In this document: in pieces, positions 18,912 to 61,280 of the stretch | How positions within the stretch are numbered: position 1 is the first letter of the stretch | Layout of the letters: each line of letters opens with the position of its first letter | Program-made: the position numbers and the translations under genes | Notes under the pieces: generated by a model | The model's input: only the letters and a program-made list of their open reading frames with translations | Database searches by the model: none | Told to the model about the DNA's origin: nothing | Source of the DNA: Nymphaea colorata | Taxonomy: Eukaryota > Streptophyta > Magnoliopsida > Nymphaeales > Nymphaeaceae | Assembly: GCF_008831285.2 (NCBI RefSeq) | Contig: NC_045148.1 | Coordinates: forward strand, 7,879,001 to 7,943,000 | DNA: 64,000 nucleotides | Direction of reading: 5' to 3'

Positions 18912-19031
18912 CAGAGGATGAAAATGAGAAGGGGAAGACGAAGGGAGCCAACAGAGGATGAAAATGAGAAGGGGAAAACGAAGGGAGCCAGCAGAGGATG
19001 AAGATGACAAGAGGAAGACGAAGGGAGCTCT
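18912..19031. repeat. 40-bp minisatellite, 3 units
   Basis: Units starting CAGAGGATGAARATGA begin at 18,912, 18,952 and 18,992. This is purine-rich, inside the TIR transposon and directly upstream of the PPR fragment. Confidence 0.92.
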
Positions 19032-19059
19032 AACAGGCAGAAAAGTGTTCCAATGATTT

Positions 19060-26187: not shown

Positions 26188-26260
26188 TGGAGACGCGGGG
26201 AATCGAACCCCGTGCCTCTCGCATGCGAAGCGAGCGCTCTACCATATGAGCTACGTCCCC
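26188..26260 (-). tRNA. tRNA-Ala (anticodon CGC)
   Basis: The minus strand folds into a full cloverleaf of 73 bases. The anticodon loop is TTCGCAT inside a CTCGC/GCGAG stem, so the anticodon is CGC and reads GCG. The acceptor stem GGGGACG pairs with CGTCTCC, including the G3-U70 wobble that marks tRNA-Ala, and the discriminator base is A. The T arm carries GTTCGATTC (B box). A T-run follows as Pol III terminator. No intron. Confidence 0.97.
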
Positions 26261-26343: not shown

Positions 26344-26416
26344 TGGAGATGTGGGGCATCGATCCCCAGACCTCTCGCATGCAAAGCGAGCGCTCTACCA
26401 TCTGAGCTACATCCCC
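26344..26416 (-). tRNA. tRNA-Ala (anticodon TGC)
   Basis: The minus strand forms a 73-base cloverleaf with anticodon loop TTTGCAT, giving anticodon TGC. The acceptor stem GGGGATG/CATCTCC again has G3-U70. The B box is GATCGATGC and the A box TAGCTCAGATGG. A TTTTT terminator follows. It lies 83 bases from the CGC copy in the same orientation. The two differ at several stem positions, so they are not a recent duplicate. Confidence 0.97.
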
Positions 26417-40200: not shown

Positions 40201-41473
40201 TCAGCTGCTTCTTTCCAACTCAGCAACAAACCAACCTCCTTCTGCATTTCATGCAGAAGTGGAAACAGCTATTCGTGACATGTCTTTATTGATTCACCAA
40301 GCGAAACAGCTTCATTATGACAGTGCAACCACAATCATGAAATTGAAGGCCCAGATCCAAGATTACAAAGAACAAATAAGCTCCTTGTCTGACAAGAACA
40401 CAAAGTCTGGTCAGCAAGCAGCAGAGGCAGTTCCAAAGGGACTGTACTGCCTGGGTGTCATGCTTACTATGGACTGGTTCAGGAACTCGAATTTACAGAG
40501 GAAGAACATGGAGAAAAGAAGAATTGCCGAGAAGCTCAATGACAACAATCTTTACCACTTCTGCATATTCTCTGATAATCTCTTGGGAACATCTGTTGTC
40601 ATCAACTCCACTTCAATTAATGCCCATCATCCTGAACTGCTTGTGTTCCATGTTGTAACTGATCAAGTTAACTATGCTGCCATGAAGGCATGGTTTTCCC
40701 TGAACAGTTTCAGGGGAGTAACAGTTGATGTTCAGAAACTAGAAGATCTCACTTGGCTAAATGCATCCTATGTTCCTGTACTAAAACAGCTCCAGGACTC
40801 AGAAACCCAGATGTACTACTTTTCTGGCAAGGCAAATGTGAAAACTCAGATAAAATTCCAAAATCCGAAGTACTTGTCAATGCTCAACCACCTTCGCTTC
40901 TACATCCCTGAATTCTTGCCGCAGTTGAAGAAGGTTGTATTTCTTGATGATGACGTGGTAGTGCAGAAAGATCTGATCCCACTTTTCAAAATTGATCTCC
41001 ATGGCAATGTGAATGGGGCTGTAGAGACTTGCATGGAAACGTTCCACAGGTTCCATACATACTTAAACTTCTCTCATCCATTAATCAAGGCACATTTTGA
41101 TCCAGATGCCTGCGGGTGGGCATTTGGGATGAACGTGTTTGATCTGGTGGAGTGGAGGCGGCGAAATGTCACAGGGATCTACCACTATTGGCAAGAGCGA
41201 AATGTCGACCGGACCTTGTGGAAACTTGGTACATTACCACCAGGTTTATTGTCATTTTATGGGCTAACAGAGGTGTTGAGTCCAGAATGGCACATGCTAG
41301 GGCTGGGTTACGATGAGTCTAAAGATTTGAAGGCATTCAGAGATGGTGCAGTTGTTCACTACAATGGAAACAGGAAACCATGGATGAAGATTGCTATCGA
41401 AAAGTACAAGGGCCTTTGGGAAAAGTACGTGGACTATTCACATCCATTATTGCAGCAATGTAATGTGCATTAA
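37210..41473 (+). CDS. GAUT10: Galacturonosyltransferase, GAUT10-like
   Basis: This encodes a Golgi type II membrane glycosyltransferase (GT8) of pectin homogalacturonan/xylan-associated synthesis. Exon 1 (37210-37350) starts MMRRRQIRTARRKFSGG with a membrane anchor at residues 18-33 (VCVFVGLVILMLIAIF). Exon 2 (40019-41473) holds the whole remaining protein, giving 531 residues against about 536 in Arabidopsis GAUT10. The stem has RQLNDQIALAKAL. The catalytic region includes FLDDDVVVQKDL with the metal-binding Asp357-359, CGWAFGMNVFDLVEWR, TLWKLGTLPPGLLSFYGLTE and HYNGNRKPW at 494-502. It ends YVDYSHPLLQQCNVH, close to the GAUT10 C-terminus. The reading frame is intact. Intron 1 is 2.67 kb. 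Confidence 0.95.
38482..38749. repeat. 134-bp tandem duplication in GAUT10-like intron
   Basis: Two adjacent copies (38,482-38,615 and 38,616-38,749) start AAAATAATTGAACAGAT and end GTAAGTTTGATC. They differ at about five bases, so the duplication is fairly recent. Confidence 0.95.
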
Positions 41474-43110
41474 GAGAAGAAACTCACGACAGAATGCATC
41501 CGAAGCAGATGGTGCTAATGGTTGTGGTGCTGCCATTCCACGCATTGCCAAGGGGTGTCTTCGTGACGGCATTCAGGAAAAACGATCGGCATATTGCTGG
41601 TCTTTTTGTTTTTTCCTCGTAGTTTCTGTATTTGGTGAGTCCGGCAGGTATTTATTTAACTCGATTACCGAGTCTTTCTTCCAGAGAAGAAAATCTTGGC
41701 TGGGACTTAGGAACTTGTTGCGATTCAATAAGTTGTAGAACTCAAAGAAAAAAGTAGAATAGTAGAATTGTTTGCATAAGATCCAATATGAAAGGTTGGT
41801 ATATGAACTGATAAGCTTTCGTCCTTAATTTCAGACTGCTCTTGTGACGTCTGGCAGGATGTTTCCGTGGTTCATTTACAATAATCAAAGCTGAAAGCGA
41901 TCACAAATGTTTAGAGCGACAATCAATAAGCAGCAAGAAATTTGTGGTCTAGCAGGAAGCTTCCGTGGTTCATTCACAATAATCAAGCTGAAAGAGATCA
42001 GAAGTGCTTAGAGCGACAATCAATTAAGCAGAAAGAAATTGCAGTCTTTCTGTTAAAGTCATGAGAAGTTCGTTGGTTGTGGTAAGGGAAGTAGAGAAGC
42101 TCAGAAAGTAGAATATAGAACTTCAGAAAGCACGCAAACATAGACAAGGAAATGGTATTTTTTTAATACACATCCAAGCGCCGAAATTGGTTTATACCAG
42201 AGCTTTCGCCGAGTACAAAGCTAACCAGTTCAAAATACATAAACTCTTCTATTTTGCAATCTTTGTAGATGCGATCCTGCCATTAAAATGTTAGTTTACA
42301 TGTTTCAATTCAAACTCATTTGGTAAAAATTTTTTCTTTTTTTGCGGATCTAGTTTATGGTTCCTATATTGCAATATCACATCCAAAACGTTTGATTATA
42401 CAGAAGAATATATGAACTTGTGTATTAGGCACTATGCCCGTAGAGTTCCTTACCAGTTATAAAAAAGTTTCATTTTTTTAATAAATGATAAGCTTCTTCG
42501 TCCATTCAACCTTCCATATATATATGTCTAAACAACATGAACAATGACATCATTTCTACCTAAAAACTGCTGAATAGTTATATAAACAAGCATAATTGAA
42601 ATTATACTTTTAAATTTATAATGGATAGTAGTGCATTGCAAAAAGCAAAACAATTTTATGTATTAGAAGGGTCTCGAAATTCCAATTTCACTTTATCATC
42701 TTAAGACCAACAATCTGGATCTAATTATGCCAATCTAAGTGCAAGTTTCTGTAATAAAGGGCAGGGACAGAACATGGTCCGCTTGACTCAGACAACCTCC
42801 TAGCAAGGGGTGAATCCATGTAGAATTAACTCTCTAAGATTTGGATCGCGGTCAGTTTAGCTTGATTTCACATAAACCCGATTGATATCCGGCCCTTTAA
42901 TTTCCAAAATCACGCTGATTCTTGCTGTTTCAATCCAACTCTGATGGTTCTAAGCCAAAATTCAGTCATCCCATAGGAAAAGAGAAGGAAAACTGGATAT
43001 GCAGTGTCAGAGGTATAATCCAATATGGATCCGCTGGTCTGAGGGAATGTTTTTGGTCAACGTAGACTTGTCGTGTATTAATTGTGTGTATTAAAAAAAG
43101 AGCAACACAA
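41474..43110 (+). other. 3' flank of GAUT10-like gene
   Basis: This holds the likely 3' UTR and non-coding AT-rich sequence. A tandem duplication lies at 41,850-42,047. The open frame at 41,391-41,738 overlaps the end of the real gene and is not credible. Confidence 0.5.
41850..42047. repeat. 98-bp tandem duplication downstream of GAUT10-like gene
   Basis: Units starting TCTGGCAGGATGTTTCCGTG (41,850) and TCTAGCAGGAAGCTTCCGTG (41,948) share GCTGAAAG and TTAGAGCGACAATCAAT. They differ at about a tenth of positions. It may lie in the 3' UTR. Confidence 0.88.
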
Positions 43111-43182
43111 GTCGTTGTAGTATAGTGGTGAGTATTCCCGCCTGTCACGCGGGTGACCCGGGTTCGATCCCCGGCAACGGCG
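43111..43182 (+). tRNA. tRNA-Asp (anticodon GTC)
   Basis: A 72-base cloverleaf. The acceptor stem GTCGTTG pairs with CAACGGC, the discriminator is G, and the anticodon loop CTGTCAC gives GTC. The A box is TAGTATAGTGG and the B box GGTTCGATCC. TTTT follows at 43,184 as Pol III terminator, and CAACACAA lies just upstream, as at many plant tRNA genes. Confidence 0.97.
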
Positions 43183-43234
43183 TTTTATTTTATACGGCTT
43201 TTTCTAAGCTGCTTTTACAAGTTGAAGAACATAC

Positions 43235-43760
43235 CCCAAGTAGTGTAACCAGCTAACAAAGTGGATATAGGGAGATATTTTTGTTAATTATAATGGACAT
43301 TTAGTTACTTATACCAAGGTAGTTTCTTTATAAACAGTATATTTATTCATTTAGCTTGAGAGGATTAACATATTTTGTCACCAACACTATGTATTTATAC
43401 AGCTTTCAATCCATTAATATGAATTGGGGAATATCAGTCCTGCAGATATGTTCTTGTCACTTTCCATTTAATGGAGTTACGTTCATCTCCAAACACTCAA
43501 ATGTTTTATCAAATAAATGGCTTTATGAAACTTCCATTTGTCCATTTACAAATATACAAGGAACCCGGACAAGATTCTGCATGTACATAAATGTAACGTT
43601 TTATATTTCATACGATCGATTGAATGTGTAACATACTTTGTACCTTAGAAGCCAAGTTATTTTGATCCCGATTCATTAGTGTAAATGAATTCAGCATTGT
43701 CAGAGAAGCGCAAAACCACTTCTGATTTGCTTTTTGAAGAGAGAGAAAAAAAAGGTTTTT
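43235..43760 (+). repeat. Flanking repeat A (matches 60,305-60,750)
   Basis: AGTGTAACCAGC, then GTTAATTATAATGGA, ACTTATACCAAG, CTTGAGAGGATTAACA and TTGTCACC.ACACTATGTAT recur in the same order and orientation at 60,305-60,750. The copies are clearly diverged. This one lies upstream of polygalacturonase copy 1. Confidence 0.85.
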
Positions 43761-44361
43761 TGAGCCTTCAAAGTCCATTCTTTCTCATTATTTTCGAGTA
43801 AAAAACTTTATTATACGTTATATTTTGATATCAGTAGCAAAATGTTCGTCACAAATAAATTTTAACCAATGACGCATATGTAGGCATTTTGTTACCTTTT
43901 CTTTCAATGGTAGGACCTTTAGTGACGAGGTCAGTGGCACATTGTTTTTGTAATTGAAGATATCTGGTGGCTCATATTCTGCGCTATTAAATGTCATTCT
44001 GGGATTAATATCTAAGCAGGCACAAAACTGGGTTTTGGGCTGTCATTCAAACAACCTGGCACATAGACTTTTCTTCATTTTATGTTCAAATCTCCGAATT
44101 TGAATTCAAATATGTGAACATTTGAGAAAAACAATTGTGGTTCATGGCACATCTGATTCAATTCTGATCCATTGACAGAGACACTTTCTTTTTACAATTT
44201 TGCTAATTTTCTTAAAATTTTGTTTGAGATGGGATTTTCGTCTTTGTAATTGCTTTAATGAATTTTGTGACAAAGCGATTCTTTCAGCATTAGATGCAAA
44301 AGTCAATGGCCTTATTGATGAGTTCCAAAGATTGTTTGTGTGTATGTGTGTGTATGTGTGC

Positions 44362-44429
<68 letters not shown>

Positions 44430-44879
44430 CATTTGATACATAACCATTCTTAGATTTTGGTGTGCATCTGTAAATTTCAAAAGGGGGAAGAAACATCACA
44501 GAAGGAAAGAAGGTTCAACTTTGTGGCTGGTGCATGTGCTAGGGGATGTTCTTAATATAGTGACGCAAAATCACACGTCAATAATCAGTGTAAGGTGGCA
44601 CAGATGTCCGTAGCTAACCCAAAAAACGTCGCTATTTAGTCACATTCAAACAAGTTTATTGCACAGCTAGACAGAGTTCGAAAGATCGTACTCACATGTC
44701 AATAATCAGTGTAAGGAGCTGCTTCACATAAGCAGCCTTATCATGACCCTTGTTCAATACTTACTCTCAAGTGGCCATGTGCGTGTAATAATAACATTAG
44801 AAATTGCATATATAAATCTGTGTGTGTGTGTGTATAAGATGAAAGAAAAAAAGAATGGTTGTGAAAAACTCTTTACTGA
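43761..44879. other. Intergenic between repeat A and polygalacturonase arm
   Basis: Non-coding. A (GT)n(GA)n microsatellite at about 44,336-44,428 accounts for the repetitive open frames here. Short GTGACG words near 43,920 and 44,560 resemble those of the candidate element at 12,699. Confidence 0.5.
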
Positions 44880-45275
44880 AAAGCATCTGTTTTATGTTAA
44901 CGTAAAATGGTTTTCTTTTAATTTGTAATGTTTTTCATTTATGGCGTTATGTGTGAATTATGTTCTGAAGTTGGAAGATTATTTGTAATATTTAAATGTT
45001 AGGGGTTCTTCATATATAAATACCTCTAAATCTGAGAATGGTTATGTACTAAATTTCTCGTTTTTCTTGTCCTAGTTCCCATCGAAACTCTCTCTCACTC
45101 CCCTACAAATACAGCAAATTAAGGTCAAATATAAGAAAAACAAAGTCAAATGACTATTGTTAGAGACGAAATCATGAACACACTAGGCGCAGCAAAATTT
45201 TCGGGTCTCCAATTGCCGATCAAACTTGTGGTCAGTGATTCAACATTTAGTTCTACGAAGCACCATAGCAAAACC

Positions 45276-45283
45276 TATAAATA
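45276..45283 (+). promoter_or_regulatory. TATA box of polygalacturonase copy 1
   Basis: TATAAATA lies 94 bases before the ATG, within CAAAACCTATAAATACTCAA. The same context is found in front of the inverted copy. Confidence 0.8.
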
Positions 45284-45369
45284 CTCAACCTCACCCCCAT
45301 CAAAGTTAATATTGTGGATGGACTAGCCCTCCTTTTCAATCATCTTCCCTCAATTCTTCCTTCTCCACG

Positions 45370-47196
45370 ATGGATCTTCGGTTTGTTTTCTGGCTTTCCA
45401 GCTTTGCTCTTTGTTCATTCTCAGCCATTTCCCTAGCAGGTTCGAGCTCGGGGACTTACAGCGTCGATGATTATAGTGCCAAAGGTGATGGCAAAAGTGA
45501 TGACACAAAGGTTCTCTTCGACTTTAACCATCTGTTCTCTCTCCAAGATTATTTTTTTCTTTCTCCAAGGACCGACAAATTGTTAAGGGAGAGCCACCTT
45601 TCTCTTCACGTGTAGCCAATAATATGTGTAGATACATTTTATGTATTTTACTAATTCCGGTGAGGTGATCTTCTTTTGCATGGACGCTCTAGGCATTTAA
45701 CGATGCCTGGGCTGCAGCCTGCGCGGATTCCGGCAGTCCGACTCTGATGATTCCCGGAAACAAATACGTGGTGGGGCCGCTCCTGTTTAAGGGCCCATGC
45801 CAAAATACTGGTCCGTTGACGGTGAAGGTGCAGGGCACCGTTTTGGCATCGACCAACCTCAACCTTTTCACGGGACAGGAGTGGGTTCTCTTCTACAAGG
45901 TCAATCAGCTCAGGTTGACAGGAACCGGAACCTTTGATGGGCAGGGGACTACGGCTTGGCCACAGAACCAGTGCCCTTTCAAGAAGCAATGCAAAGTCTT
46001 GCCTGTTGTAAGTTCGTTCTTCATTTACCAAACTTTCTTTTCTCTTTTTAAATTTTTCACATACAACATACATGCTTAATGCACAGTCGCATCGCAAAAA
46101 GGACTAACAAAGTTTTTCCTTCATAAAAATATGCCTGCAGTCACTCAAGTTTGCCTTCTTAAAAGACACAGTAGTTTCGGGGATTACCTCATTGAACCCC
46201 AAGATGTTCCACATTGCTCTGCTGAACAACGAAGGGATCAAGTTCCAAAACGTCCATATTAAAGCACCAGGCGACAGTCCAAACACTGATGGAATCCATA
46301 TTGAGACTTCTACTGGCGTCCAGATATTGCAGTCTGACATCGGTACTGGGGATGACTGCATTTCTATTGGCCATGGAAACACCGATGTTTACGTTGAAGG
46401 CGTTAACTGCGGACCAGGACACGGAATCAGGTACTTACTTCCATTTACCACACCTCCTCCTCCTCCTCCTGATTTCGCCCATTCCTATTCTTTGTTTTTC
46501 TTTCCTCTCCAATCCTTGATCATATGATCCATGCACTAACGTCGTCGTGTCATATATATGGACTGCCAAAACTCCAGTGTCGGCAGCTTGGGCAGGTATT
46601 CCTATGAAAAAGATGTTACTGGCGTGATAGTAAAGGGATGCACCATTAGCGGCACCATGAACGGGGTGAGAATCAAGTCATGGCAAGCATCTCCTAGCTC
46701 CATCTCTGCAACCAACATGACCTTCGACAACATTATCCTCAAGGATGTTGGCAACCCAATCATCATCGATCAAAACTACTGCCCCTTTAAATCTGCTTGC
46801 GCTCAACAGGTAATTGAGCCTGCTAGCTCCCTATGTTATCTTCAATTCCTTCTTCTCATTCTGTGTTCGTGTTTCTTATTCAGAATATTAATGGCTTAGT
46901 TATGATGATGTGCAACTTTATGTAATTCGAGCAAAACAAGTAACAATTGTATATTGTTTTTGTTGCAGGCACCATCACGAGTTAAGATCAGTGGTATCAC
47001 GTTCAGCAACATCAGAGGGACTTCGACGACACCTGTAGGAGTAACTATGCAGTGCAGCAAAGCGTATCCTTGCCAAAATATTAAGGTTCAAGAGATAAAT
47101 CTGAGTTACAATGGACCTGGAGGGCCCATAACATCTTCATGTGCTAATGTCAAGGCCAGCTACAGCGGGAAACAGGTTCCTGATCCATGCAACTGA
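45370..47196 (+). CDS. Polygalacturonase (GH28), copy 1
   Basis: This encodes a secreted pectinase that hydrolyses homogalacturonan in the cell wall. Exons are 45370-45510, 45693-46007, 46141-46430, 46578-46809 and 46969-47196, giving 401 residues with all phases consistent. A signal peptide covers about residues 1-23 (MDLRFVFWLSSFALCSFSAI). The four GH28 motifs are present: NTD at 200-202, GDDC at 222-225, the GHG histidine at 246 and RIK at 280-282. The exon 1 donor is weak (gttctc), but the same junction is used in other plant polygalacturonases (DDTK/AFNDAW). There is no long propeptide, as in the pollen/exo-type clade. Exons 2-5 encode the same residues as copy 2. Activity looks intact. 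Confidence 0.95.
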
Positions 47197-47403
47197 AGAC
47201 CTCTATCGGCAACTAACTAGCTTAATTAACTACAAATTAGCTCTCTCCTGGCTTCCTCATGCAATCAAAGTGCATGAGTGCATTTACTAGGAGATAAGAA
47301 GCTCATGGTCCGAGACCTATTCAGTTTGTAATGTTTTTTTCTTTTCTTTTTTTCATATAAGAGCCACCTCACCAACTATTGGGTGGCCATGTATTTGTGA
47401 TTG

Positions 47404-48049
47404 ATAGATCAACTTTGGATTAATGAAAATACAGTTATGAAATCCAGGCATGTTTTGAGAATGAGAATTTTTCATAAAATAAGAACAATGGTAAGATGGT
47501 AGCTAACAAATACTGCAAGTTTGAAAAGGAGGTACAGTTTGACTTCTGAAAGAGCGCGACACCACCACAGTGGGATATGTGGAAAAGAGAAAAGAGAAAA
47601 CAAGAAGCAAAAGAGGCTGCGCGGTTTGGAGAAAAAGAGATGAAGTACAAAATGACAATTACTTTTGTGCGTCCCCCGCTAATATAAGATGTTGCTTTAG
47701 TGAGTTGTATGAGCATTGAAGTTAAGTGTCCCATTTTCTAACCCTTTCTTGCCTTAATCAAACTTAACATGATCTATAGGGGGTGTTTGGTAACAGGAAT
47801 ACTAGCACAGTGTCCTATGAGTGAGGACACATTCATTAAAATTCTATTATTATAAATATGCTTTAATCTTTGACATAGGTTAACAGAATGCTATATTATA
47901 TATTAGTTTTCTTGTTATCAAACACCAATCAGGGTTCTTTGAGTGGAGGTGAGCATATAAAAATTATTGGAACCTTATGTGTACCATGCATGCCTTTTGA
48001 TGATACACGAACCAGCGAAAAATAATCAAACTTTTAGTGCTCAAGGTAC
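47404..48049. other. Intergenic after polygalacturonase copy 1
   Basis: AT-rich and non-coding. The minus-strand frame at 47,435-47,734 shows no known domain. Confidence 0.5.
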
Positions 48050-48500
48050 CTTTTTTCCATAAACACACAAATAATTTACTTCCTGCGTTTTCCATCATAT
48101 TGCTGGAAACGTTTAAGCTGCATAATGCATATCAATTCAAAACATTGTACGTTCCTTCATTCATTTGGTTATATAGTGTAACTTCTAAAAACGCTCATGT
48201 AAATTAATCTTGATCATTGCCAAAGTACTGAAAACGTTATTAATGTTAGGGCTTAAAGGTCGTAATGCTTCTTGAATTTTACATTGTACAAAGTCAAACT
48301 ATAGGTATGGCAGGTAAAACCAGTGTATAGCTAAGTTTCGTTCTGCAAAGTGCATGGTTCCTCTTATCTTGTAGAAAAGAAATAGCACTTGTTCTTTCCA
48401 TCTTTATATATTGCATTCAGTGTAAGATGCTAACTGTTTTTTATGCTTTTGACGTTACAAGATCCACTTCCAACTATTTGGAGTTTAATTTTATGCTTGC
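48050..48500 (+). repeat. Flanking repeat B (matches 59,815-60,160)
   Basis: TTTCCATCATAT..GGAAACGTTTAAG, ATCAATTCAAAACATTG, TTCCATCTTTATATATT and GACGTTACAAGATCCACTTC recur in the same order and orientation at 59,815-60,160. It is diverged. It lies 3' of polygalacturonase copy 1. Confidence 0.8.
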
Positions 48501-48559
48501 TGCTACCTTTACATGATGATATTAAACCATTCCAAAAAGATACACCCAAAGTTTTTTCA

Positions 48560-48782
48560 TAGTTCCGGATGAGCAGGAGGTTAACGCCCATCGCCCCCAA
48601 AAGAAGCTAAAGGCCTCTCTCTATTCTTCCTACCTCCATAGTCCTTAACGGCATAGGGGACTTGGGTAGACTACAATTCACCTTTAATAGAGTGTCTTGA
48701 ACCCACCTTTTGTGGTCCCAAAGGGAATAACACTCACGGGAATCGAACTGATCTATCAACCTACTATGCTACATCCCTTAAG
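48560..48782 (-). mobile_element. tRNA-derived SINE-like element
   Basis: On the minus strand the 5' part (from about 48,782) reads GGGATGTAGCATAGTAGGTT, like a Pol III A box, and about 30 bases later CAGTTCGATTCCCGTGAGTG, like a B box (GTTCGATTC). A further 160 bases of non-tRNA body follow. A/B spacing and orientation fit a tRNA-derived SINE. The 3' tail and target duplication are not clear. Confidence 0.6.
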
Positions 48783-49329
48783 GCCAAAGTTGTTCCATAG
48801 TTAATTTTAAACAAAAAGAGAGAGAAAAAAAGGATGTGCATTATCAAAATTAAAAACACCCAACTTCCATAGTTGATTTAAAAACATAAAAACTTATTTC
48901 TGCCAGTTATGGTTAAACTAGTGAATTAACATTTTCCTTTAATTTTGATGGCCTCCATCCTAAAAGTAATATTAAGACATACCTAGGCGGATTTGTAGTT
49001 TATTAATCTCACCCAAGTTTTGATTGTCAAAGTACCTTTCAGACATTAATTAAAATGAAACTAATTTGATAATCACATATTAATATTTTTATTTGGATAA
49101 ATTTTAAAAATTTAATACAAATGAACATGAAATTGTTTTTTGTTTTCATATCACATTATTAATAAAACTTAAATTAATAATGACCTACCTAGGGTTAAAC
49201 ATTGATGGAAATTTTATTATTTATTATAGTAAGCGAATGATTTTTCATAGAACTGATGCTGGGGGGTTGCCCCAGAATTTATTGACAAAAAAATGAGAGA
49301 GTATTTACATAAAAAAATGGGACCAGTGA
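48783..49329. other. Intergenic, AT-rich
   Basis: No gene. A GGGGTTGCCCCAGAATT word near 49,262 resembles the GGAGCCA-type family. The LINE 3' end should lie near the right edge but no clear poly(A) is seen. Confidence 0.4.
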
Positions 49330-52300
49330 GATCCTATACATTTATAAAATATGCTTGTTTGACCTTGAGTTTGGAGAAAGCTGATGCAATACTTTACAGA
49401 TAGTGGCATTGTCCACTCTTTTGAGCAAGATGAAACACTTTAGTGTTGGGTCATCTCTAAAAAAACCAAATTGATTTGCAGTCAACTTGCGGAGCCACCC
49501 AAGACCTGCTGTACATAATCTTCTTTCAAGCTTTTGCAATAGCGACTGATGAAGCACCCATTATTACAAATCACCTTAATGATGCCAATACACCTTTCAT
49601 TTTCTGGACTGCTAATAGGCTTTGCTGAAGTAGGCAGACTTCACCAGCTAATAGGCTTTGCTGAAGTAGGCAGACTTCACCAATAGCTCCACCTCCAGCA
49701 CTTCAACAAGTAATGACAAAGATGTAACACCCACTACTCTCCCTTACTAGAGCCACCACATCCTTGTTGTCCTTGTTAAGGCACACTACAATGTGGATAT
49801 TATAGGCAGTTCCATATTCCCACCTCCAGCAGCCCCAATGTAACCCTACCTCTACCTATGTTTGGATAGCTTGTCTAACACTTAGGTTCCAGTCTCTAGA
49901 GATAATAAAATCACCGCAGTAACTCCATAGCACCTTACCACTGGAACTCATAGCAGGTTTTTTCTCATGCATGTAGTTGTTGTGCCATTTCCATATATGC
50001 CAAAGGATTATGTACAGTAAATTCTTCCAGCACTTGAAAAAGATCTTATTTTTAAATTTGTGAAAGGTCCATAAGACAAAAGCATCATTGACAGTTGTTG
50101 GATGAAAATTGCTCTGCCCAAGCTTCCTAATAACCAACTCTCATAGGCTTTTGGCTTCTATGCAATGAAGGAAAACATTGTTAGTATCTTCTTTAGCCAT
50201 TTTGCATATATTAGAAGCTTAGAACACACTTTTGGACTCTAGCATCAACAAGGAGGTAACCTTCAACTGCCAAGAAGATCGTCCATGTAGCATGGGGAGG
50301 GGCTCCAACTTTCCAAATGGAATTCCTCCATTGCTGAATGAGACTCTTAGCCCACAACGCGTCCCAAACATAGTGTTATGACATCAGACATGAGCTGCAA
50401 TCTACCCATTCAAGTATGTCATGTCTACTATCATCAAGCATCGGAAGTTGCATCAAATTGTTCATAGAATCGAGGAGCACTTGGACATAGGTGTCCTCAT
50501 CGACAAGCAACTCTTTAATAGTGCAATTCATGATATCTTGAATTAGGGGCCAATGAGCATGTGAGATCATAGTAGCGATAATGACACCATTCCACCGGTC
50601 ACGCCAAAATTTGACTCTTGAGCTATTATTGACTCTCTAATGAACTTGAGATTCAATTAACTGCCAACATTTGATCAACCTCTTTCATAAGATAGATTTG
50701 ATCCTTTTAAGTTTGTAATGCCACACACTCTTTTTGGTTAAATACTTGGTCTTGACAAGATGAACCCAGAGAGAATCTTGCATGATTGCTTTAACCCAAA
50801 AAAAATAGAGGTTAGCCATATTAACATTTAGCATGCACCGAAGACTAACTCCACCCTCCACCTTCGGTTTACAAAGAGTATCTTAGTTGATAAGGTGTGA
50901 CCCTTTTGCCTCCATGACATCCCTTCAGATGAAGCCCAAACACAACTTGTCAATTTGATGACAAGTGGATAAAGAAATCCACAAAACCATAATCCAATAG
51001 CTAGGAATAAACGTCAAGACATGTTCAACCAAGCAAAGTTTATCGACATAAGAGAGTAGCTTCTGCTTCCAGCCGGTAAGCTTGTGATTAACTTTAAGCA
51101 CTATATGCTCATATTGGCTCTCTGTGATGGCTCAGAGTTGGAGAGGCAAGCCCAGACGTATAACATGTAAATTACCCGTCTCCAACCCATGATAGCACAT
51201 AGTCTATTGCACTCCAACTTAGAAAAGTTGAAGAAAAAAAAAGAGGTCTTGTTAGGATTAACTTTGATACAAGCCTCAACTGAAAGAGGCAATCTCTAAG
51301 GCAAAAAAAAAAACTTTTTTTTACCTTCAACTAAAAAATGACATGGTTAGCATAAAAGGAGGAACCTATGGATCTTAAAGAACTAACCTTGGAACCAAAG
51401 AGCATTCCCTATTGCAAATAAGCCAGCACACTTCAGCTAAGAATTTTCATCGTAACAGTGAACAAGTAGGGGGACATGGGGTCTCCCTACTGCAACCCCC
51501 TTGTGGTGCTGAACCAGGAACCTTCCATGCTATAAATACTACAGTCATAATACAAAAGCCTAGTAAATTAAGCTCATTCTTCACAAACCACCAATTCACT
51601 TTGTCATAAGCCTTGCTAAGGTTGATTTTAACACATGCAACTTTAGACATATTATGAGCAAATGAATGAACCACCTCCTGACTCAACAGAAAGTTGTCCT
51701 GAATGCTACGGCGCATCAAAAAGGCCGACCGATTCTGGTCAAGAATATGGCTCAGAATAGGTCTCATGAGTAAGACCATAATTTGAGTGTGGAATTTAAG
51801 AATACTATTGCATAGAGAGATAGGTCAGAACTTGTCCATAGTACAGGCATCCTCTTGTTTGAGAAGAAGAACAATGTGTGTTCTATTGATCCCTTTTACG
51901 ATGTGATCGAATAAAAAAGCCTCCTTTATAGTGAGACTACATCGGGCCCAATGATAGATAAACGATTGATAAAATCGATTGTTGAAACCATCTAGCCCAG
52001 TGGTCGAATCCCTATTCGCATTGAACATTGCCCATTGTATTTTCTAATTGCAAATAGGGCTAACCAAAGACTCATTTTCTTCAGCAGTCACCATCGGACC
52101 TAGATAAACATTAAAAGGAAGGAGCTCAGAACTCACATTGTAAGTCAACATGTCTTTGAAATATCTAGTGCATGTAGCAAAAAGTTCATCCATCTCCAAA
52201 ACAACCCTCTCGCCATCCATGATCGTGTGGTTACGATTTCTCTTTTTTCTGCCTTTAGCAATAGCACAAAAAGATTTAGAATTAGAGTCCCCCTCTCTCA

Positions 52301-54960
52301 TCCACCTTACACGAGCCTTTTGTCTTGATAAGCTTTAGGAGAGTGAGACAAAGATTCATCTCACGAGTGCTAATAGATAGATCACCCCCTTCCGTCAGCT
52401 TCTGGGCCTTGCCCACCTGCACTCTAAGTCTCTCGACAATCCTCCCAGATCATTAGGGCCTTTCTTAGACCAAACCCAAAACTTATCTCTGACTAATTAG
52501 AGTTTAGATACGAGTCTAACCGTGGGGCAACTAGCAACTTGTTCAAACCAATAATCTACAATAAGACTTCTAAACTGGAGAAATGGTTTCCAATAAGTGA
52601 AGTATCAGAAGGAGACTGATTTGCCACATGTAGATGTGGTTCCTCTCAGTCGCCATAACCACAGGGCTATGGTCAGATGAGGTACGAGGAAAAGACTAAA
52701 AAACCAATCACGGCAATCCCACCAGTCATGAAAGACAAAGTAGTGGTCAATCAGACTCTGCACATTAGTGAACCCCTCTCTATTGTTCGACTAAGAAAAC
52801 TTATAGCTGGGGTCAAGTATTTCAACAAACTGATTGGTGGTAACAAAATTATTGAATAGAATGCACGACCAAAGAGCCGAGAGTTTACCTGATTACTGCG
52901 ACATATCCCTCACAGAATTGAAACCACTCAAGCATACATTCAGCTAGCAAAGGCTAGAAAGCTTCTCATTAAGCTCATCTCCGAATTCGGAAGTCCGGAT
53001 GGATGTACACCTCTAAAATCGAGAAGATTTTGTAGGAACTTAGGTGCTTATCCACGATAGATATCCAATGAACTTGCATTTTAGATGTGCATCTTGTCAA
53101 CATCCCACAATAGCCAAATCCTTGCCCATTTTCCATTGAGATGAATATTAGAAATAGAGTGATATCTGGGAAACTTCAACCTGAGTTTTTCTAAAGCAAC
53201 CTTTCAATTTTGTATCAATGAAGACTACAATCTCTGGGTTAGCATGCTGAAAAATAAACTATAGATCGCGCTAGCCAGACACGCCGGCCTGCCCATGAGC
53301 TTTCCAAGAAAAGGACCTCATTGCATCCCAACAAGAACGCTGCATTCACTATTGCACCCTACCAGTTCTTCACTGCTAGGGTTATTATCCTTTTCATCTA
53401 TTTGGAAGTTCTTCTCTTTGTTAAGTAAAGGTAAACTCATTTCCTGATCACCTGAATCTTTAGTAGCTGAGGATGCCTTGGATTTAGGCTGCACCGAAGC
53501 TAGAGTGGTTAATGGTTTGAGAAAAAAGTAGGCCTGTGTCTGAGCAAGAGACATAAAGATCCCAGAGGAGCTTCTTTGGCAGAGGATGACTGTTGGGCCT
53601 CTTCTTAAATGAGCTCGTAGATTTGCGTTCAACTGGCGTTTCTTCTCCATTGAACTTTTCCAGAGGGACACCATTACACCAATTGAGTGATAATGAGATT
53701 CATCTATAGCCATACAATAAGCACTTAACTGGGCTTGAAGGATGCTTGCGCTAGCCGCCACCTTAGTTACGGTAGGAGCAACCACTATTGTGTAACCTAT
53801 CATGATCCACCACCTCTGGGCGAGTCTCCTTGGCCTGCGCAGGTTTCCTTCTCGTGTGCTCAGGGATAAGCTTAGAACTAGTCCCTCCCTCCTCAGGTAA
53901 CACCCTTCTCCTTCTTGAGCAAACTATGTAGGGCTGAAAATCTGTTTGCCTGATCAGCTGGGCAAGCCGTTTTGTTCAGAAAAAAGGACCGGTGTTTGGG
54001 GCTTTTAACTGTCATCTATGCATTCCCATCATCTAGTCCATCAGTATGTATAGTGGGAGATTACTTCAATTCCTCACAAGCAAATGTGAAATGGTTCGTC
54101 GCCCCACATTTAAGGCAATATCTCACGTTCAACTCATACTCAAAACTTTACACGAGGGCACCCCCTTCTTCAAATGAGACTCTGACTTCATTTACTGGAT
54201 GAAAGCACAACGGAACCTCAAAGATCACATGCGCAAAACCCAAACTAGTGACCTCTCTTGTGAAAGCATCAACTTCTGGAATATATGGTTTTTCTATAAT
54301 TGTAACAGAAGATAAGGAAGTCGCACCCAAATGCGGACCTACTCGACAATTCAAGTTTCAAAGACATACCAGGTCACCACCGACTAGCTACTAGGACCCG
54401 TGCCCACCCGTCCAACTTTCCAGTGGCCAGGAGCAAGAATCATATGCAAATCAGCCTCATTTGAGGCCTTTACATGAACAAGCTCTGACCTACTGACTAA
54501 AACTTGATCGGGCATAGCCCAGCCCAAAAAGAATGAAAGGAAGAAAATACAAATCCATAGTCTAACCTATTGCAAGCCTGACCACGCTGTAAACCGGAAA
54601 CAAGCCTTTAGCTTCTCATGCGTTGACTTGGGAATGAACAACACCTTATTGCCGTCCACCTCTTGAATTTCTACCTCTTTCAGATCATCTTCATCATCAA
54701 GCTTTTCCCCTTCAACGATGGACACCCACGAGGGACCCTTAGTTGCAGAAGCCTCTTTGTTATGCTCAGCGGGTTGAACGCCTTCATTTCCTCCTTCTTC
54801 CTGCACATTGCAGTCCATCTTTTCACCAGCCAGTGGAGCGAGAAGGACTCCTTACATTTCCAATCAAGCCCAGATCACTGGCCAACCGACCGGCCATCAG
54901 AGGAGCCCTAACACTACGCATCCTATCCGTCTTTCGACGAGCAAGCCTTTTGGTGACCTA
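49330..54960 (-). mobile_element. L1-type LINE, degraded, near full length
   Basis: This reads on the minus strand from about 54,960. ORF1 has a DUF4283-like part and a CCHC zinc knuckle (YCLKCGATNHFTFACEEL, near 54,070-54,130). ORF2 begins near 53,310 with an endonuclease-like MRSFSWKAHGQAG and NPEIVVFIDTKLK. Reverse transcriptase follows (GDSNSKSFCAIAKGRKKRNR at about 52,250, DGFNNRFYQSF, KINLSKAYDKVNWWFVKNEL at about 51,590, SPYLFTVTMKILS). The catalytic YADD box reads YANH near 51,350, so it is inactive. A zf-RVT-like end lies at 49,860-50,340 (LLYIILWHIWKWHNNYMHEK). Frames are interrupted many times. A 36-bp tandem repeat (49,611-49,682) lies near its 3' end. Confidence 0.88.
49611..49682. 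repeat. 36-bp tandem duplication
   Basis: GCTAATAGGCTTTGCTGAAG and the 16 bases after it occur twice without a visible mismatch, at 49,611-49,646 and 49,647-49,682. Confidence 0.95.
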
Positions 54961-56019
54961 ACTGCACCTCGAAATGAAAGACCTAACTACTCAGTGCATG
55001 ATTTTCAAAACATCAAAAGCTAGTTGCAGTTTTACTATATTAGGTGCATTTGTTCAAATTTATGGCAACCCCAGTCGGGCATGGTTGGAGTTGGGATGAC
55101 AAAGGTAACCATGTATAATTCGATTTGGGCTTGAGCTTAGGATACCCAATTCTTTGGGTAGAACTATTATTCATAATATAGTTAACTTGTTTACAAACAA
55201 GTAACTTCAAGCGTAAAAGTGAGCCCACTAGATAAACGAATTTGCTACTTATACGAGCAAGTTCGAGTCGAGCCAGAGCTGGCTTGACTCGTTATACATT
55301 CATAATGATATCCTCATCCTTCCCTTTTAAATTTCGAGAATTTCTCAATATAAAGGTATGCCAACAATTTGATGGTTAAATGTTTTCAGCAGTATGATGG
55401 AAAGCGTACAAAAATGTATCTTTGTTGTGTTTTTAGCAAAAAAGGAAAAAAAAAGGCATTTTGGGACTCAAAAATTTGATGACCTTTTAACCACAGAGTT
55501 TTGTATAATCAAAAGGCATAATACACTTAGTGGATTCTAGTAATCAAAATGCCCATGGCTCTGAAAGAATCTCATGGGGTGTCTGGCAAAAAAAGAAAAA
55601 AAAAGGAAAAAAATAGTAATCTAGTGTTCTATGAATAAGTTGTAGCAAAGCAAATCCATAAAATGGTAGTATTTAATAAATTTAGCCCAATCTTTGAGAG
55701 CAGATTTATGAAACAATATGAATATGGTATTAATCTTTGAGAGCAGATTTATGAAACAATATGAATATGGTATTGCTCTTATTATCAGATCGCATTAATT
55801 TGCCAAATTTGATTAGGGACAAAAAAATAAAAAATGGGGCACTAACAAAATAGCCCGTAGAACTCACTGTACCAACGGTTTATTAGAGGGGAAAGAAAAC
55901 TGTTCATCTTTTGATGGGTTTACAAAGAACTGCTTAATATATATATAAAAGTTACAAGTAATGATTTGTTATAAATCATTACACAGGAACATGCCTCATG
56001 GTTGAGAGTGCTTTGGCAG
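54961..56019. other. Intergenic with AGCTCGA-type repeat and tandem duplication
   Basis: Bases 55,060-55,295 carry the GAGTCGAGCCAGAGCTGGCT type of words of the dispersed repeat seen at 11.2-15.0 kb. The rest is AT-rich and non-coding. Confidence 0.5.
55689..55774. repeat. 43-bp perfect tandem duplication
   Basis: AATCTTTGAGAGCAGATTTA and the 23 bases after it are repeated exactly at 55,689-55,731 and 55,732-55,774. Confidence 0.97.
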
Positions 56020-56182
56020 TTGGTGTTCTTTGCAAAATTATAATCTACCCATTATTTTTTTTTTAAATATGAGTTTGGTTCCTATAAAAATTTTGAAAAA
56101 TAAGTATTGCCACTATAAATAATTTCAAAAATTATGTTCAGCGTCTCAACCACCCAAGGTCAAAATCCTGGCTCTGCCCCTG
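56020..56182. mobile_element. GGAGCCA-type element, partial
   Basis: The right end reads AAAATCCTGGCTCTGCCCCT and the interior is AT-rich (TTTTGAAAAATAAG), like the element near 11,355. Only one end is clear. Confidence 0.5.
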
Positions 56183-56685
56183 GGGACACATAAGTGTTTG
56201 CTTTTTTTTTTTTCTTTTTAATTATTTTCCTAATTTCTTTCCCACATGCCCAATCCCTACTTCTTTTCATTCTCTTTTTTATTTTTAATTTTATTTTTCT
56301 CCTTTCCATCACCGTTCCCTCGCGCTCTTTCAGAAGTGAAACAATGCTCTCGTTTAAAGCTTGCTGGCATTCGTTAGCTTACCATATTATCACTGTTCTT
56401 ATTTTGTGGCAAGTTCTTGTGCTTAACACATGTCTGGTTGTTAGTAATCTTATTTTCATCATTACAAAATTGATGATCAATTACAAATACATGGCCACCC
56501 AATAGTTGGTGAGGTGGCTCTTAAAATGAAAAAAAGAAAAGAAAAAAACATTGCAAACTGAATAGGTTTCGGACCATGAGCTTCTTATCTCCTAGTAAAT
56601 GCACTCATGCACTTTGATTGCATGAGGAAGCCAGGAGAGAGCTAATTCGTAGTTAATTAAGCTAGTTAGTTGCCGATAGAGGTCT

Positions 56686-58513
56686 TCAGTTGCAAGGATC
56701 AGGAACCTGTTTTCCGCTGTAGCTGGCCTTGACGTTAGCACATGAAGAGGTTATGGGCCCTCCAGGTCCATTGTAACTCAGATTTATCTCTTGAACCTTA
56801 ATGTTTTGGCAAGGATAGGCTTTGCTGCACTGCATAGTTACTCCTACAGGTGTCGTCGAAGTCCCTCTGATGTTGCTGAACGTGATACCACTGATCTTAA
56901 CTCGCGATGGTGCCTGCAACAAAAACAATATACAATTGTTAATTGTTTTGCTCGAATTACATAAAGTTGCACATCATCATAACTAAGCCATTAATATTCT
57001 AAATAAGAAACACGAACACAGAATGAGAAGAAGGAATTGAAGATAACATAGAGAGCTAGCTGGCTCAATTACCTGTTGAGCGCAAGCAGATTTAAAGGGG
57101 CAGTAGTTTTGATCGATGATGATTGGGTTGCCAACATCCTTGAGGATAATGTTGTCGAAGGTCATGTTGGTTGCAGAGATGGAGCTAGGAGATGCTTGCC
57201 ATGACTTGATTCTCACCCCGTTCATGGTGCCGCTAATGGTGCATCCCTTTACTATCACGCCAGTAACATCTTTTTCATAGGAATACCTGCCCAAGCTGCC
57301 GACGCTGGAGTTTTGGCAGTCCACATATATGACACGACGACGTTAGTACATGGATCATGTGATCAAGGATTGGAGAGGAAAGAAAAACAAAGAATAGGAA
57401 TGGGCGAAATCAGGAGGAGGAGGAGGTGTGGTAAATGGAAGTAAGTACCTGATTCCGTGTCCTGGTCCGCAGTTAACGCCTTCAACGTAAACATCGGTGT
57501 TTCCATGGCCAATAGAAATGCAGTCATCCCCAGTACCGATGTCAGACTGCAATATCTGGACGCCAGTAGAAGTCTCAATATGGATTCCATCAGTGTTTGG
57601 ACTGTCGCCTGGTGCTTTAATATGGACGTTTTGGAACTTGATCCCTTCGTTGTTCAGCAGAGCAATGTGGAACATCTTGGGGTTCAATGAGGTAATCCCC
57701 GAAACTACTGTGTCTTTTAAGAAGGCAAACTTGAGTGACTGCAGGCATATTTTTATGAAGCAAAAACTTTGTTAGTTCTTTTTGCGATGCGACTGTGCAT
57801 TAAGCATGTATGTTGTATGTGAAAAATTAAAAAAGAGAAAAGAAAGTTTGGTATAATGAAGAACGAACTTACAACAGGCAAGACTTTGCATTGCTTCTTG
57901 AAAGGGCACTGGTTCTGTGGCCAAGCCGTAGTCCCCTGCCCATCAAAGGTTCCGGTTCCTGTCAACCTGAGCTGATTGACCTTGTAGAAGAGAACCCACT
58001 CCTGTCCCGTGAAAAGGTTGAGGTTGGTCGATGCCAAAACGGTGCCCTGCACCTTCACCGTCAACGGACCAGTATTTTGGCATGGGCCCTTAAACAAGAG
58101 CGGCCCCACCACGTATTTGTTTCCGGGAATCATCAGAGTCGGACTGCCGGAATCCGCGCAGGCTGCAGCCCAGGCATCGTTAAATGCCTAGAGCGTCCAT
58201 GCAAAAGAAGATCACCTCACCGGAATTAGTAAAATATAAAAAATAAAAAGTATCCACATATATTATTGGCTACACCTGAATTGAATGTGGCTGTTATTAA
58301 CAATTTTTCGGTTCTTGGAGAAAGAAAAAACTAATCTTCGAGAGAGAACAGATGGTTAAAGTCGAAGAAAACCTTTGTGTCATCACTTTTGCCATCACCT
58401 TTGGCACTATAATCATCGACGCTGTAAGTCCCGGAGCTGGAACCTGCCAGCGAAACGGCTGAGAATGTAGAAAGAGCAAAGCTGGAAAGCCAGAAGACAA
58501 TGCGAAGATCCAT
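56686..58513 (-). CDS. Polygalacturonase (GH28), copy 2
   Basis: Minus-strand exons are 58373-58513, 57873-58187, 57449-57738, 57073-57304 and 56686-56913, with the same lengths and phases as copy 1, giving 401 residues. All four GH28 motifs are kept (NTD 200-202, GDDC 222-225, His246, RIK 280-282). The protein differs from copy 1 only in the signal peptide (MDLRIVFWLSSFALSTFSAV). Exon 4 starts AG/C instead of AG/T, a silent change at Ser249. Intron 3 has one CCT unit fewer. The two genes probably have the same enzymatic activity, and any difference would come from promoter or secretion signal. Confidence 0.95.
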
Positions 58514-58629
58514 CGTGAAGAAAGAAGGATAGGAAGAAGAAGAAGAGGAAGAAGAAAAAGATTGAAAAGAGGACAGTGTAGGATAGTTAGCCCATCCACA
58601 ATATTAAGTTTGATCTGTGGGAGATTGAG

Positions 58630-58637
58630 TATTTATA
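58630..58637 (-). promoter_or_regulatory. TATA box of polygalacturonase copy 2
   Basis: TATAAATA on the minus strand, 117 bases before the ATG, in the same CAAAACCTATAAATACTCAA context as copy 1. The longer leader contains extra CTT/TTC repeats. Confidence 0.8.
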
Positions 58638-59030
58638 GGTTTTGCTACAGAGTTTCCGATAGCTAAATGTTGAGCCACTCACCACGTTTTATGGGCAATC
58701 GAAGACCCGAAGATTTTGCTGCGCCTAGTGTGTTCAATTTTTTCTCAAAAAATAGCCATTGACATTCCTGCGATATTTGACCTTAATTTGCCGTGTTTGT
58801 AAGACAGAGAAAGAAGGACAGAGTCTCGATCGGAACTAAGAAAAGAAAAGAAAAAAATATTTAGTTCAGAACCATGCTCAGCTTTTGTTGTATATATCTA
58901 TGATGAACCACCTAACATGTAAATATACGAATAATCGTCCAAATTCAGAAAATAATTCACATATCACCCCGTAATGAAAAACATTCGAATTAAAAGAAAA
59001 CCATTTTACATCTAACAAAAGGCAGTAGCT

Positions 59031-59814
59031 TTAAATAGAGAGTTTTTCACAATTATTTTTTATTCTGCTCTTCACAAACACACACACACATATATATATA
59101 CACACACACATGTGAAGCTTCGAAGCCTAGAGGTACCGCTGCATCACAAAATCCCTTAAAAGGCCTGTAACTCACATTCACAAGTAATGTTCGGTGTTCA
59201 ACCCACATCACAATTCATGAAAATTTTCCTACTTATCTTGAAAATAATTTTTTACTTCTAAGAACAACGACTATAATAAATATGATTGAAGACCTTATCT
59301 CATTTATCTAATTAAGATATAGCTCACCTCACTAGGTTGTGCAAGCGGCCTGCACTAGCCCATGTGCAATATAACCAATTAGGAGAACAAATATATGGAA
59401 CATACATGATTCTGCTAACCATAGCATGCGTATTTGCTCAATTGTGAGCATTAATCCTGCGAAAGTTACATGCTTCAACATGCATGGCTTGACATGGCTG
59501 CATGCTGTTTTAAGTTTGTTCCGCATAGCGCATGCATATATGATGCCAAAGAGAGAGAGAGAGAGAGAGAGACTTGTGTGAGTGAATGCACTGTGAAATT
59601 GAAAAGTGAAATATCAAAAGAAAAGGAGCAAGGCCGACAAGAGAGTAGGGAGAGTGCTTCCATCTCTTTCTGAAAATGGGATGACATCTTTACTGATCAC
59701 ACAAAGAAAAAACTTCGTCAATGTGGAGAGTGGTGAGAAATTGGAAAATTGAACCTTAACCGACATGAAAGTTAGTGTCACTAATTTCTATTTTTTAAAC
59801 TCAAACATACTTGA
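59031..59814. other. Upstream of polygalacturonase copy 2, no gene
   Basis: Contains CA/TA microsatellites (59,081-59,111) and a GA tract (59,551-59,573). Open frames at 59,332-59,687 are not credible. Confidence 0.5.
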
Positions 59815-60160
59815 AACACACATATCTTATATATATATATATATATAGGTTTGCCATTCCATCATGTAGATGAAAACGTTTAACCATCATGAACATCAAT
59901 TCAAAACATTGAAATGCAAGTGAAACTTGCAAACGTGTGTAAACAGGACTGTTTAGCATCAAACCATACATTTTTTATCTAGATCTAGAGCGTGCATGGT
60001 TTAACTATCTTCAAAGAAAATAAATATTAATCAATTGCTTATTCCTTCCATCTTTGTATATTTCATACAACATTAGATAAAGACTATCTTATGTGTGCTT
60101 TGACTTTACAAGGTCCACTTCCTATATTCATTGCTCGACACGTTTAAATGGATTTGGATT
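59815..60160 (+). repeat. Flanking repeat B'
   Basis: This is the diverged, same-orientation partner of 48,050-48,500. It lies on the promoter side of copy 2, whereas B lies on the 3' side of copy 1. Confidence 0.8.
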
Positions 60161-60304
60161 CAGGTATCTAAACCCGACACTCGGGTGTTCCTTATTTCCT
60201 AGAAAAGTAATAAACCATATAGGTTATGCTTTCATGGAAGGAAAGACATTAATTACTACATAAGCCTCAAATTCTTGAGTTTTTTCACGTTAAAGATTAC
60301 AACT

Positions 60305-60750
60305 AAGTGTAACCAGCGAATTACCAAGAGGACACAGAAAGATACTGTTTGTTAATTATAATGGATTCTTATTTACTTATACCAAGTTAGTTTCTGTATA
60401 AGCAGTACATTCATTTACCTTGAGAGGATTAACAGAATTTGTCACCGACACTATGTATTTACAGATATGTTGTTGCCACTTTCCATTCAACGAAGTGGAG
60501 TTCATCACCAAACACTCAAACATATCATTGAATGAATGACCTTATGAAACTTCCCCTTCCGTTTACACACAAGGCACGCGTACACAACTTTGCTTGTGGA
60601 CATAAATGAAGCATTTATGTTTCCTACAGTCGATTGAACGTGTAATATGTTTTGTACATAAGAAGCCGACCTATTTTGTACGTAAATTCAGCATTGTAAG
60701 AAATACAACAAAACCAGATCAGTTGGTTTGCAAAAGAGAAAAAATATGGT
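60305..60750 (+). repeat. Flanking repeat A'
   Basis: This is the diverged, same-orientation partner of 43,235-43,760. It follows B' at a distance of about 150 bases. Confidence 0.85.
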
Positions 60751-60884
60751 TATCTTAATCTTCCATCACGATAGATCACATAGCGCTTATAAGTCATGAG
60801 CAGAGTGAGTGACTCTTTATAGGGAAAGTTACTATATATATACATGTTTATAAGTTATATATTATATTATATATTGTGTGTGTG

Positions 60885-61242
60885 TATGTGTAAGTTAGTA
60901 AAAACCAGACCGCTTGAGTAAGAGACAAAAACCAAACCTATTGAAATTAATTATTAATTTTTATTTTTTTTTGAAATCTAACCTTATAGATATGATTTTA
61001 AGAGTGATTTGATGAGAAACATATATTAAGTTAGTTGTTTGCTTACTTAAATTTCATTGTTTTAAGAATAAAAAAATGAATGGCTCTTAAACATCAAAAT
61101 TTTGGTGGTACAAAGATCATTCTTTTTTTACAAAAAAAGCAAGATTTGTATCAAATTTGTACCTATGAACATATTAGAAGGTTCATATTTTGTTGTAAAC
61201 ACCTTTTTTACATGAATTTAAGAGATCTAGTTTTCCTACCAC

Positions 61243-61245
<3 letters not shown>
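60885..61245. mobile_element. TA-embedded MITE, copy 2
   Basis: AAAACCAGACCGCTTGAGTA, then ATTAATTATTAA, ATCTAACCTTATAGAT, ATCAAAATTTTGGTGGTA and CCTACCACTCACTATATA follow the order and orientation of 1,661-2,017. TA arrays flank it on the right (61,246-61,280). It is diverged and shortened near the right TIR. Confidence 0.7.

Positions 61246-61280
<35 letters not shown>

Follow-up and report, generated by a model that had tools for sequence, protein, structure and literature searches.

Evidence for recurrent ectopic gene conversion among four local polygalacturonase gene copies of Nymphaea colorata

Two polygalacturonase (PG) genes, here called A and B, lie convergently in a stretch of 64,000 nucleotides of the Nymphaea colorata genome (G000:C11:7879001-7943000; genome of 408 Mb, assembly of 783 contigs), which is referred to below as the window and whose numbering is used for all plain coordinates. 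The homologous arms that carry these genes (44805-47559 and 59102-56320) are separated by about 8.8 kb. The question raised by this locus is how most of the two gene bodies, introns included, came to be nearly identical between promoters, first exons and 3' ends that have clearly diverged. Results of our analysis make it very probable that A and B, together with two further copies, C and D, form an old local PG family whose members have been homogenised repeatedly by ectopic (non-allelic) gene conversion.

The near-identity tract of copies A and B

The region 43000-48600 was aligned with the reverse complement of 55300-60900 and scored in windows of 50 columns. Every window between 45642 and 47389 has 47-50 identical columns. 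Those of 44836-45641 have 30-44, with the exception of one with 12 (a 30-bp gap) and two with 49 and 48 (45447-45546), and past 47390 the values fall to 39, 36, 34 and 29. The tract so delimited covers 1,755 bp, to 47398/56483, and differs between A and B by 23 substitutions and three indels (a CCT unit among the latter), in agreement with the few differences that an earlier note, made from the letters of the window, had described. The number of substitutions is 26 in a four-way alignment of all copies (17 non-coding and 9 coding), because a T-rich stretch near 47350 is paired differently there. The step that the note had expected near 45646/58236 was found at 45644/58236, within 2 bp, the last A/B difference to its left being at 45643/58237. 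A second drop on the right-hand side had escaped that note; there the homology goes on beyond the tract to 47559/56320. In 50-column windows no smooth gradient of divergence is seen: the step is sharp and two-sided.

The divergence outside the tract is that of homologous sequences. On the 5' side A and B differ by 15.7%, plus indels, at 45060-45355 in the pairwise alignment and by 24.0% at 45100-45369 in the four-way one; on the 3' side the values are 23.3% (47399-47530, pairwise) and 27.1% (47401-47530, four-way). The position of the tract was also estimated by a best-island test, in which the log-likelihood ratio (lnLR) of one low-divergence island versus the rest of the columns is compared with that of 200 shuffles. 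On all columns the best island is 45644-47352 (22/1706 differences inside vs. 140/743 outside; lnLR 119), which 0/200 shuffles matched, the best of them reaching 13.7. The non-coding columns by themselves place it at 45644-47398, with 17/687 differences (2.5%) vs. 126/556, lnLR 66, 0/200 shuffles and P of about 3e-30. The A/B island is thus two-sided, lies inside longer homologous arms, and has its left edge within intron 1. As the step is seen on non-coding bases alone, selection on the protein cannot produce this pattern.

This bears directly on the simplest alternative, namely, a young duplication followed by fast evolution of the promoter and the 3' flank, with the gene body kept by selection. 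Purifying selection on exons 2-5 is indeed apparent, since the A/B changes in them comprise nine synonymous and no replacement ones. However, introns 2, 3 and 4 (3/133, 3/144 and 4/159 differences) are nearly as alike as the exons, intron 1 has 21/131 differences to the left of the border and 0/49 to its right (Fisher P 0.0012), and copy C, a pseudogene, retains the identity. A young duplication combined with selection on exons was rejected on the intron data, and the scenario as a whole is hardly credible. The preference of the earlier note for gene conversion over a simple young duplication is borne out by the homologous flanks, diverged by 16-27% as compared with 2.5% at non-coding sites inside, and by the left border that C and D share, their right borders being different. 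Two other candidates were also rejected: a retrocopy, as the introns are kept, and, in the case of A and B, duplication or transfer of the core by itself, as homology passes both edges. A high G+C content of the core, considered as a mark of biased conversion, gave no clear signal (36-37% in the core introns vs. 31-38% in the left part of intron 1).

Shared borders and mosaic structure in four copies

A search of the genome with three pieces of arm A as queries, the resulting counts being lower bounds, revealed two further copies, C and D, on the same chromosome just outside the window. Along about 73 kb the copies follow one another as A+ B- C+ D-, with alternating orientations, the pairs A/C and B/D being direct. 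The earlier description of an inverted pair therefore holds for A and B and falls short of the whole system, which has at least four copies and is not confined to inverted pairs. The remaining genome matches to arm A are at most 78% identical or are fragments of about 150 bp or less. Exon 1 of copy C is interrupted by a stop codon, and everything from exon 2 to part of exon 4 is missing; C is therefore a pseudogene. Over what it keeps of exons 4-5 and intron 4 (46640-47199) it differs from D by one base, at 47136, and from B at 5/560 positions; its total core differences are higher (e.g., 26/656 vs. D), most of them being letters at the deletion junction. The coordinates of the copies and their segments are collected in Table 1.

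Table 1. Polygalacturonase gene copies, tracts and borders (coordinates in the window unless marked C11)
Feature	Position	Strand	Remark
Near-identity (converted) tract in A	45644-47398	+	shared with B
Part of the tract in A	45644-47199	+	shared with D and with the remainder of C
Near-identity (converted) tract in B	56483-58236	-	
Shared left border of the core	45635-45644	+	last differences, at a 5-bp T-rich indel
Right border, {A,B} vs. {C,D}	47197-47200	+	identity extends 3 bp past the stop codon, to 47199
Separate tract shared by A and D	45356-45609	+	from 14 bp upstream of the ATG to the middle of intron 1
Diverged 5' arm of A	44805-45643	+	promoter and exon 1, with intron 1 up to the core
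Diverged 5' arm of B	58237-59102	-	
Diverged 3' arm of A	47399-47559	+	
Diverged 3' arm of B	56320-56482	-	
Copy A PG gene	45370-47196	+	open frame, GT-AG introns; 401 codons and stop
Copy A exons (5)	45370-45510, 45693-46007, 46141-46430, 46578-46809, 46969-47196	+	
Copy B PG gene	58513-56686	-	open frame, GT-AG introns; 401-residue protein
Copy B exons (5)	58513-58373, 58187-57873, 57738-57449, 57304-57073, 56913-56686	-	
Copy C	ATG C11:7948521	+	pseudogene
Copy D	ATG C11:7997290	-	intact 401-codon frame

In the four-way alignment, the last difference before the core is at 45643 in the pairs AB, AC and AD, at 45641 in BC and BD, and at 45635 (the indel) in CD, so that one 9-bp stretch of intron 1 holds it in all six pairs, and each pair has a low-divergence island that 0/200 shuffles matched. 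The right edges differ. At 47200-47330 the pairs joining A or B with C or D differ at 38/117 to 40/117 positions, as compared with 3/131 for AB and 4/117 for CD; in pairwise alignments of 47200-47341 the corresponding values are 16-25%, 2.1% and 3.1%. The right edge of AB lies in the 3' untranslated region (3' UTR), where the two copies are near-identical to 47398, and that of CD lies near 47342, about 145 bp past the stop codon, with 20/68 differences beyond its step (47342-47398). Among the intact copies, pairwise divergence is about 1-2.5% in the core, about 16-20% in the 5' flanks and about 14-31% in the near 3' flanks.

A different grouping is found in each segment. The separate A/D tract shows 4/254 differences, in contrast to 29/252 for A/B over the same segment (Fisher P 3e-6; 24/252 in the pairwise alignment), and is separated from the core by 34 bp with four differences and the 5-bp indel (P 0.0013). 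The 3' UTR pairs A with B and C with D, with 41 sites of this pattern at 47200-47400. Distal 3' homology is longest between A and C, where pieces of 68-79% identity extend to about 1.25 kb past the stop codon of A, and D loses it about 240 bp past the stop codon. To judge from the site patterns and from the extent of homology, these groupings (A with D in exon 1, A with B and C with D in the 3' UTR, and A with C in the distal 3' part) conflict with each other across the flanks.

Inside the core, the copy that differs from the other two among A, B and D shifts in blocks: 26 sites form 10 runs, while 17.7 are expected (P 0.001 in 100,000 shuffles). Sixteen of these sites, those in exons, were compared with three paralogues from C6 as outgroups, the outgroup state being that held by at least two of the three. 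A and B together look derived, with D having the outgroup state, at 46321, 46343, 46377, 46611 and 46623; B and D look derived, with A having that state, at 45783, 46578, 46977 and 47187; and single copies look derived at 46401 (D) and 47148 (B). The first two sets of sites do not both fit one tree, single sites being uncertain.

The pattern may also be read as a single wave, in which one core replaced the others once and all core differences are later point mutations. The left border common to six pairs and the similar core divergence (19/1553 for AB, 19/1547 for AD and 14/1548 for BD) are what such a wave would leave, yet the three right borders (47199, about 47342 and 47398) demand more than one event, the core differences are clustered by copy as given above, and the tract over exon 1 of A and D is separate. 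We regard a single wave as rather improbable, and recurrent conversion is the reading followed below.

Reliability, mechanism and encoded proteins

An artefact of assembly or polishing, in which copies were collapsed or one was copied onto another, has to be considered in a sequence that is known from the assembly alone. Collapse would give exact identity, whereas the A/B tract carries dispersed substitutions and indels, its changes in exons 2-5 are all synonymous, and the combinations of borders differ among the four copies. The flanks, diverged by about 16% or more, would lie beyond what polishing could be expected to overwrite, and the 164 kb examined contain no N. Because copy-specific changes are dispersed and the flanks diverged, an assembly error seems unlikely, and we give it very little weight.

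Several observations speak against recurrent conversion with one common border. The best-island fit on all columns misses this border in every pair but AB: its starts are 45370 (AC, CD), 45356 (AD), 45611 (BD) and 46640 (BC), and only for AB 45644; on non-coding columns they are 45589 (AC, CD), 45356 (AD), 45611 (BD) and 45642 (BC). The deviation has three causes, namely, similarity in exon 1 and in parts of intron 1, the tract that A and D have to themselves, and mismatches that C contributes at its deletion junction; the evidence for the common border is therefore where the last difference falls, and not this fit. The step between A and B is blurred by 45451-45543 (end of exon 1 and start of intron 1), where they differ only once, so that frequent upstream differences with indels, as claimed in the earlier note, are confirmed for most windows and not for this patch; a third A/B tract may account for it, although not with certainty. 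Five of the 16 outgroup comparisons (46232, 47064, 47079, 47133 and 47169) remained unpolarised, and outgroup divergence amounts to 26-32% over exons 2-5, which makes single sites uncertain. The identity of C could also be explained if its gene had been active until lately and the deletion were young; its sequence suggests that C either still exchanges sequence or lost its stretch very recently. Divergence figures also vary with the aligner: for the 5' flank they are 15.7-19.5% in pairwise alignments (45060-45355, six pairs) vs. 24-38% in the four-way one (45100-45369), so about 16% or more is the safe reading of this divergence, and at the start of the 3' UTR the pairs of A or B with C or D differ by about 33% in the four-way alignment vs. 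the lower pairwise values given above. Finally, the evidence comes from one assembly of one species.

Conversion among the gene bodies of the four copies probably takes place when a double-strand break or a stalled recombination event is repaired from the sequence of a neighbouring copy. The common left edge may mark the point at which heterology, i.e., the 5-bp T-rich indel and roughly 10% mismatch, stops branch migration or heteroduplex. Such a barrier would reinforce itself: each later event would be trapped in the stretch kept alike by earlier ones, and the sequence outside would drift. As a consequence, the same mature enzyme would be secreted by A and B from separately evolving promoters. 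The full model, in which the PG clusters of this plant keep one common enzyme body by recurrent conversion that is limited by a self-reinforcing border both inside intron 1 and close to the stop codon, with promoters, signal peptides and 3' ends left free to diverge and the dead copy serving as a further donor, is put forward tentatively, and as a whole we consider it unlikely.

To judge from their products, A and B encode PGs of glycoside hydrolase family 28 (GH28). The protein of copy A matches Glyco_hydro_28 of Pfam (PF00295) with E 4.4e-92 (residues 57-390, profile positions 1-321 of 324), and the sequences SPNTDG, GDDC, GPGHG and RIK are all present in the translations of A, B and D, covering NTD, GDD, GHG and RIK, which we take to be the defining catalytic motifs of GH28. 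The proteins may resemble exo-PGs of pollen (clade C); the best match by sequence among solved structures is ADPG2 (PDB 7b8b, E 7.2e-81). The proteins of A and B differ only at residues 5, 15, 16 and 20, which lie in what looks like a signal peptide. A and D differ in exons 2-5 by nine synonymous and three replacement changes, and purifying selection on the protein probably acts in addition to conversion. The replacements of D relative to A and B, at residues 183, 213 and 220, fall in its exon 3 (G000:C11:7996223-7996528); residue 220 stands two residues before the GDD motif, and at codon 213 D carries the base of all three outgroups.

Related systems and neighbouring features

Ten further PG genes from two other clusters (C1 and C3) were found by protein search, the exon limits of those in C1 being approximate. 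The inverted pair L040/L043 of C1 shows no difference between columns 1327 and 2455, a stretch that spans two introns. On its right side the similarity falls to 70-73% and then, immediately beyond the end of the coding sequence, to 40%; there L040 instead resembles L041/L042 (84-95%). On the left side of the pair the similarity stays at 90-100% without a sharp step. In the inverted pair L041/L042 (G000:C1:16542500-16548900) the arrangement is the reverse of that in A/B: part of the bodies is less similar than the flanks (29/2301 differences outside vs. 34/400 inside columns 2076-2602), and some sites link L042 with L039 and L041 with L040. These mosaics fit conversion in the C1 cluster as well. 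In the C3 cluster the bodies are 91-100% alike in all 10 pairs (columns 700-1999) and the 5' flanks vary; this cluster was not counted as evidence for conversion, as recent duplication could also explain it.

The PG locus adds a well-resolved case to a known process, gene conversion. The human G-gamma and A-gamma globin genes are a classic example in which near-identity gives way stepwise to divergence within an intron, and the step is explained there by conversion. Those genes are direct tandem animal copies and their edge lies at a simple repeat; here, the edge is at the 5-bp T-rich indel. A review (PMC3924832) describes two systems of linked inverted copies in Drosophila. The palindromic pair of Amy genes, like A and B, consists of carbohydrate hydrolase copies with a homogenised body and independent flanks, on which purifying selection and conversion act together. 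In contrast to Amy, the PG tract takes in introns as well as some of the 3' UTR; on the left it ends within an intron, and its core, known here from one species, is common to at least four copies, one of them a pseudogene. The Hsp70Aa/Ab and Ba/Bb palindromic pairs likewise undergo ectopic conversion, which is backed there by orthologues and shared polymorphism, whereas the PG case rests on one assembly.

In the plant PG literature, conversion was suggested, and a test of it proposed, for four misplaced gene copies of Medicago (PMC3517903), and rapid divergence of expression was described for tandem PG duplicates (PMC1794546). PG duplicates that are clustered, as at our locus, and diverge in expression are the subject of these papers and of a third one (PMC6102391), the consulted parts of which report no mapped conversion tract, shared border or decoupling of body and promoter. 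Titles and abstract openings from a literature search on PG with gene conversion or concerted evolution likewise describe no mapped PG conversion.

The locus shows how copies in a plant enzyme family may be old although their coding sequence or synonymous distance makes them appear young, so that coding-based duplicate ages and trees would mislead here. In neighbours of both inverted and direct orientation, nature has left a clear trace of the points at which ectopic conversion begins and ends, and the combination of a conserved enzyme with freely evolving promoters can be tested here. If the tentative full model is true, one enzyme would be placed under several independent switches, and similar mosaics limited to gene bodies in other PG clusters would point to a habit of the family and not an accident of a single locus.

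Further fragments and neighbouring features were recorded. An isolated fragment on C7 (L035, G000:C7:5711150-5711300) is 90% identical to A at 46537-46688, where intron 3 ends and exon 4 begins, and other fragments occur on C7, C4 and C12. About 3.9 kb upstream of copy A, whose product would degrade pectin, stands an open reading frame (ORF; 39902-41473, + strand) with GT8 and GAUT domain 1, which is galacturonosyltransferase-like and thus related to pectin synthesis. Between copies A and B there is a reverse transcriptase (RVT_1) fragment (51447-51824, - strand), barely above the Pfam cut-off. Just beyond both arms, which are themselves inverted, lies a direct repeat of 70% identity (43242-43664 and 60306-60678), the first unit of which adjoins a tRNA-Asp gene (43111-43182); another direct repeat, of about 72% identity, occupies 1622-2027 and 60856-61261. 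Elsewhere in the window are an ORF with PPR repeats (19008-19481, + strand) and a pair of tRNA-Ala genes (26188-26260 and 26344-26416, - strand) with anticodons cgc and tgc, which are 83 bp apart and 86% identical.

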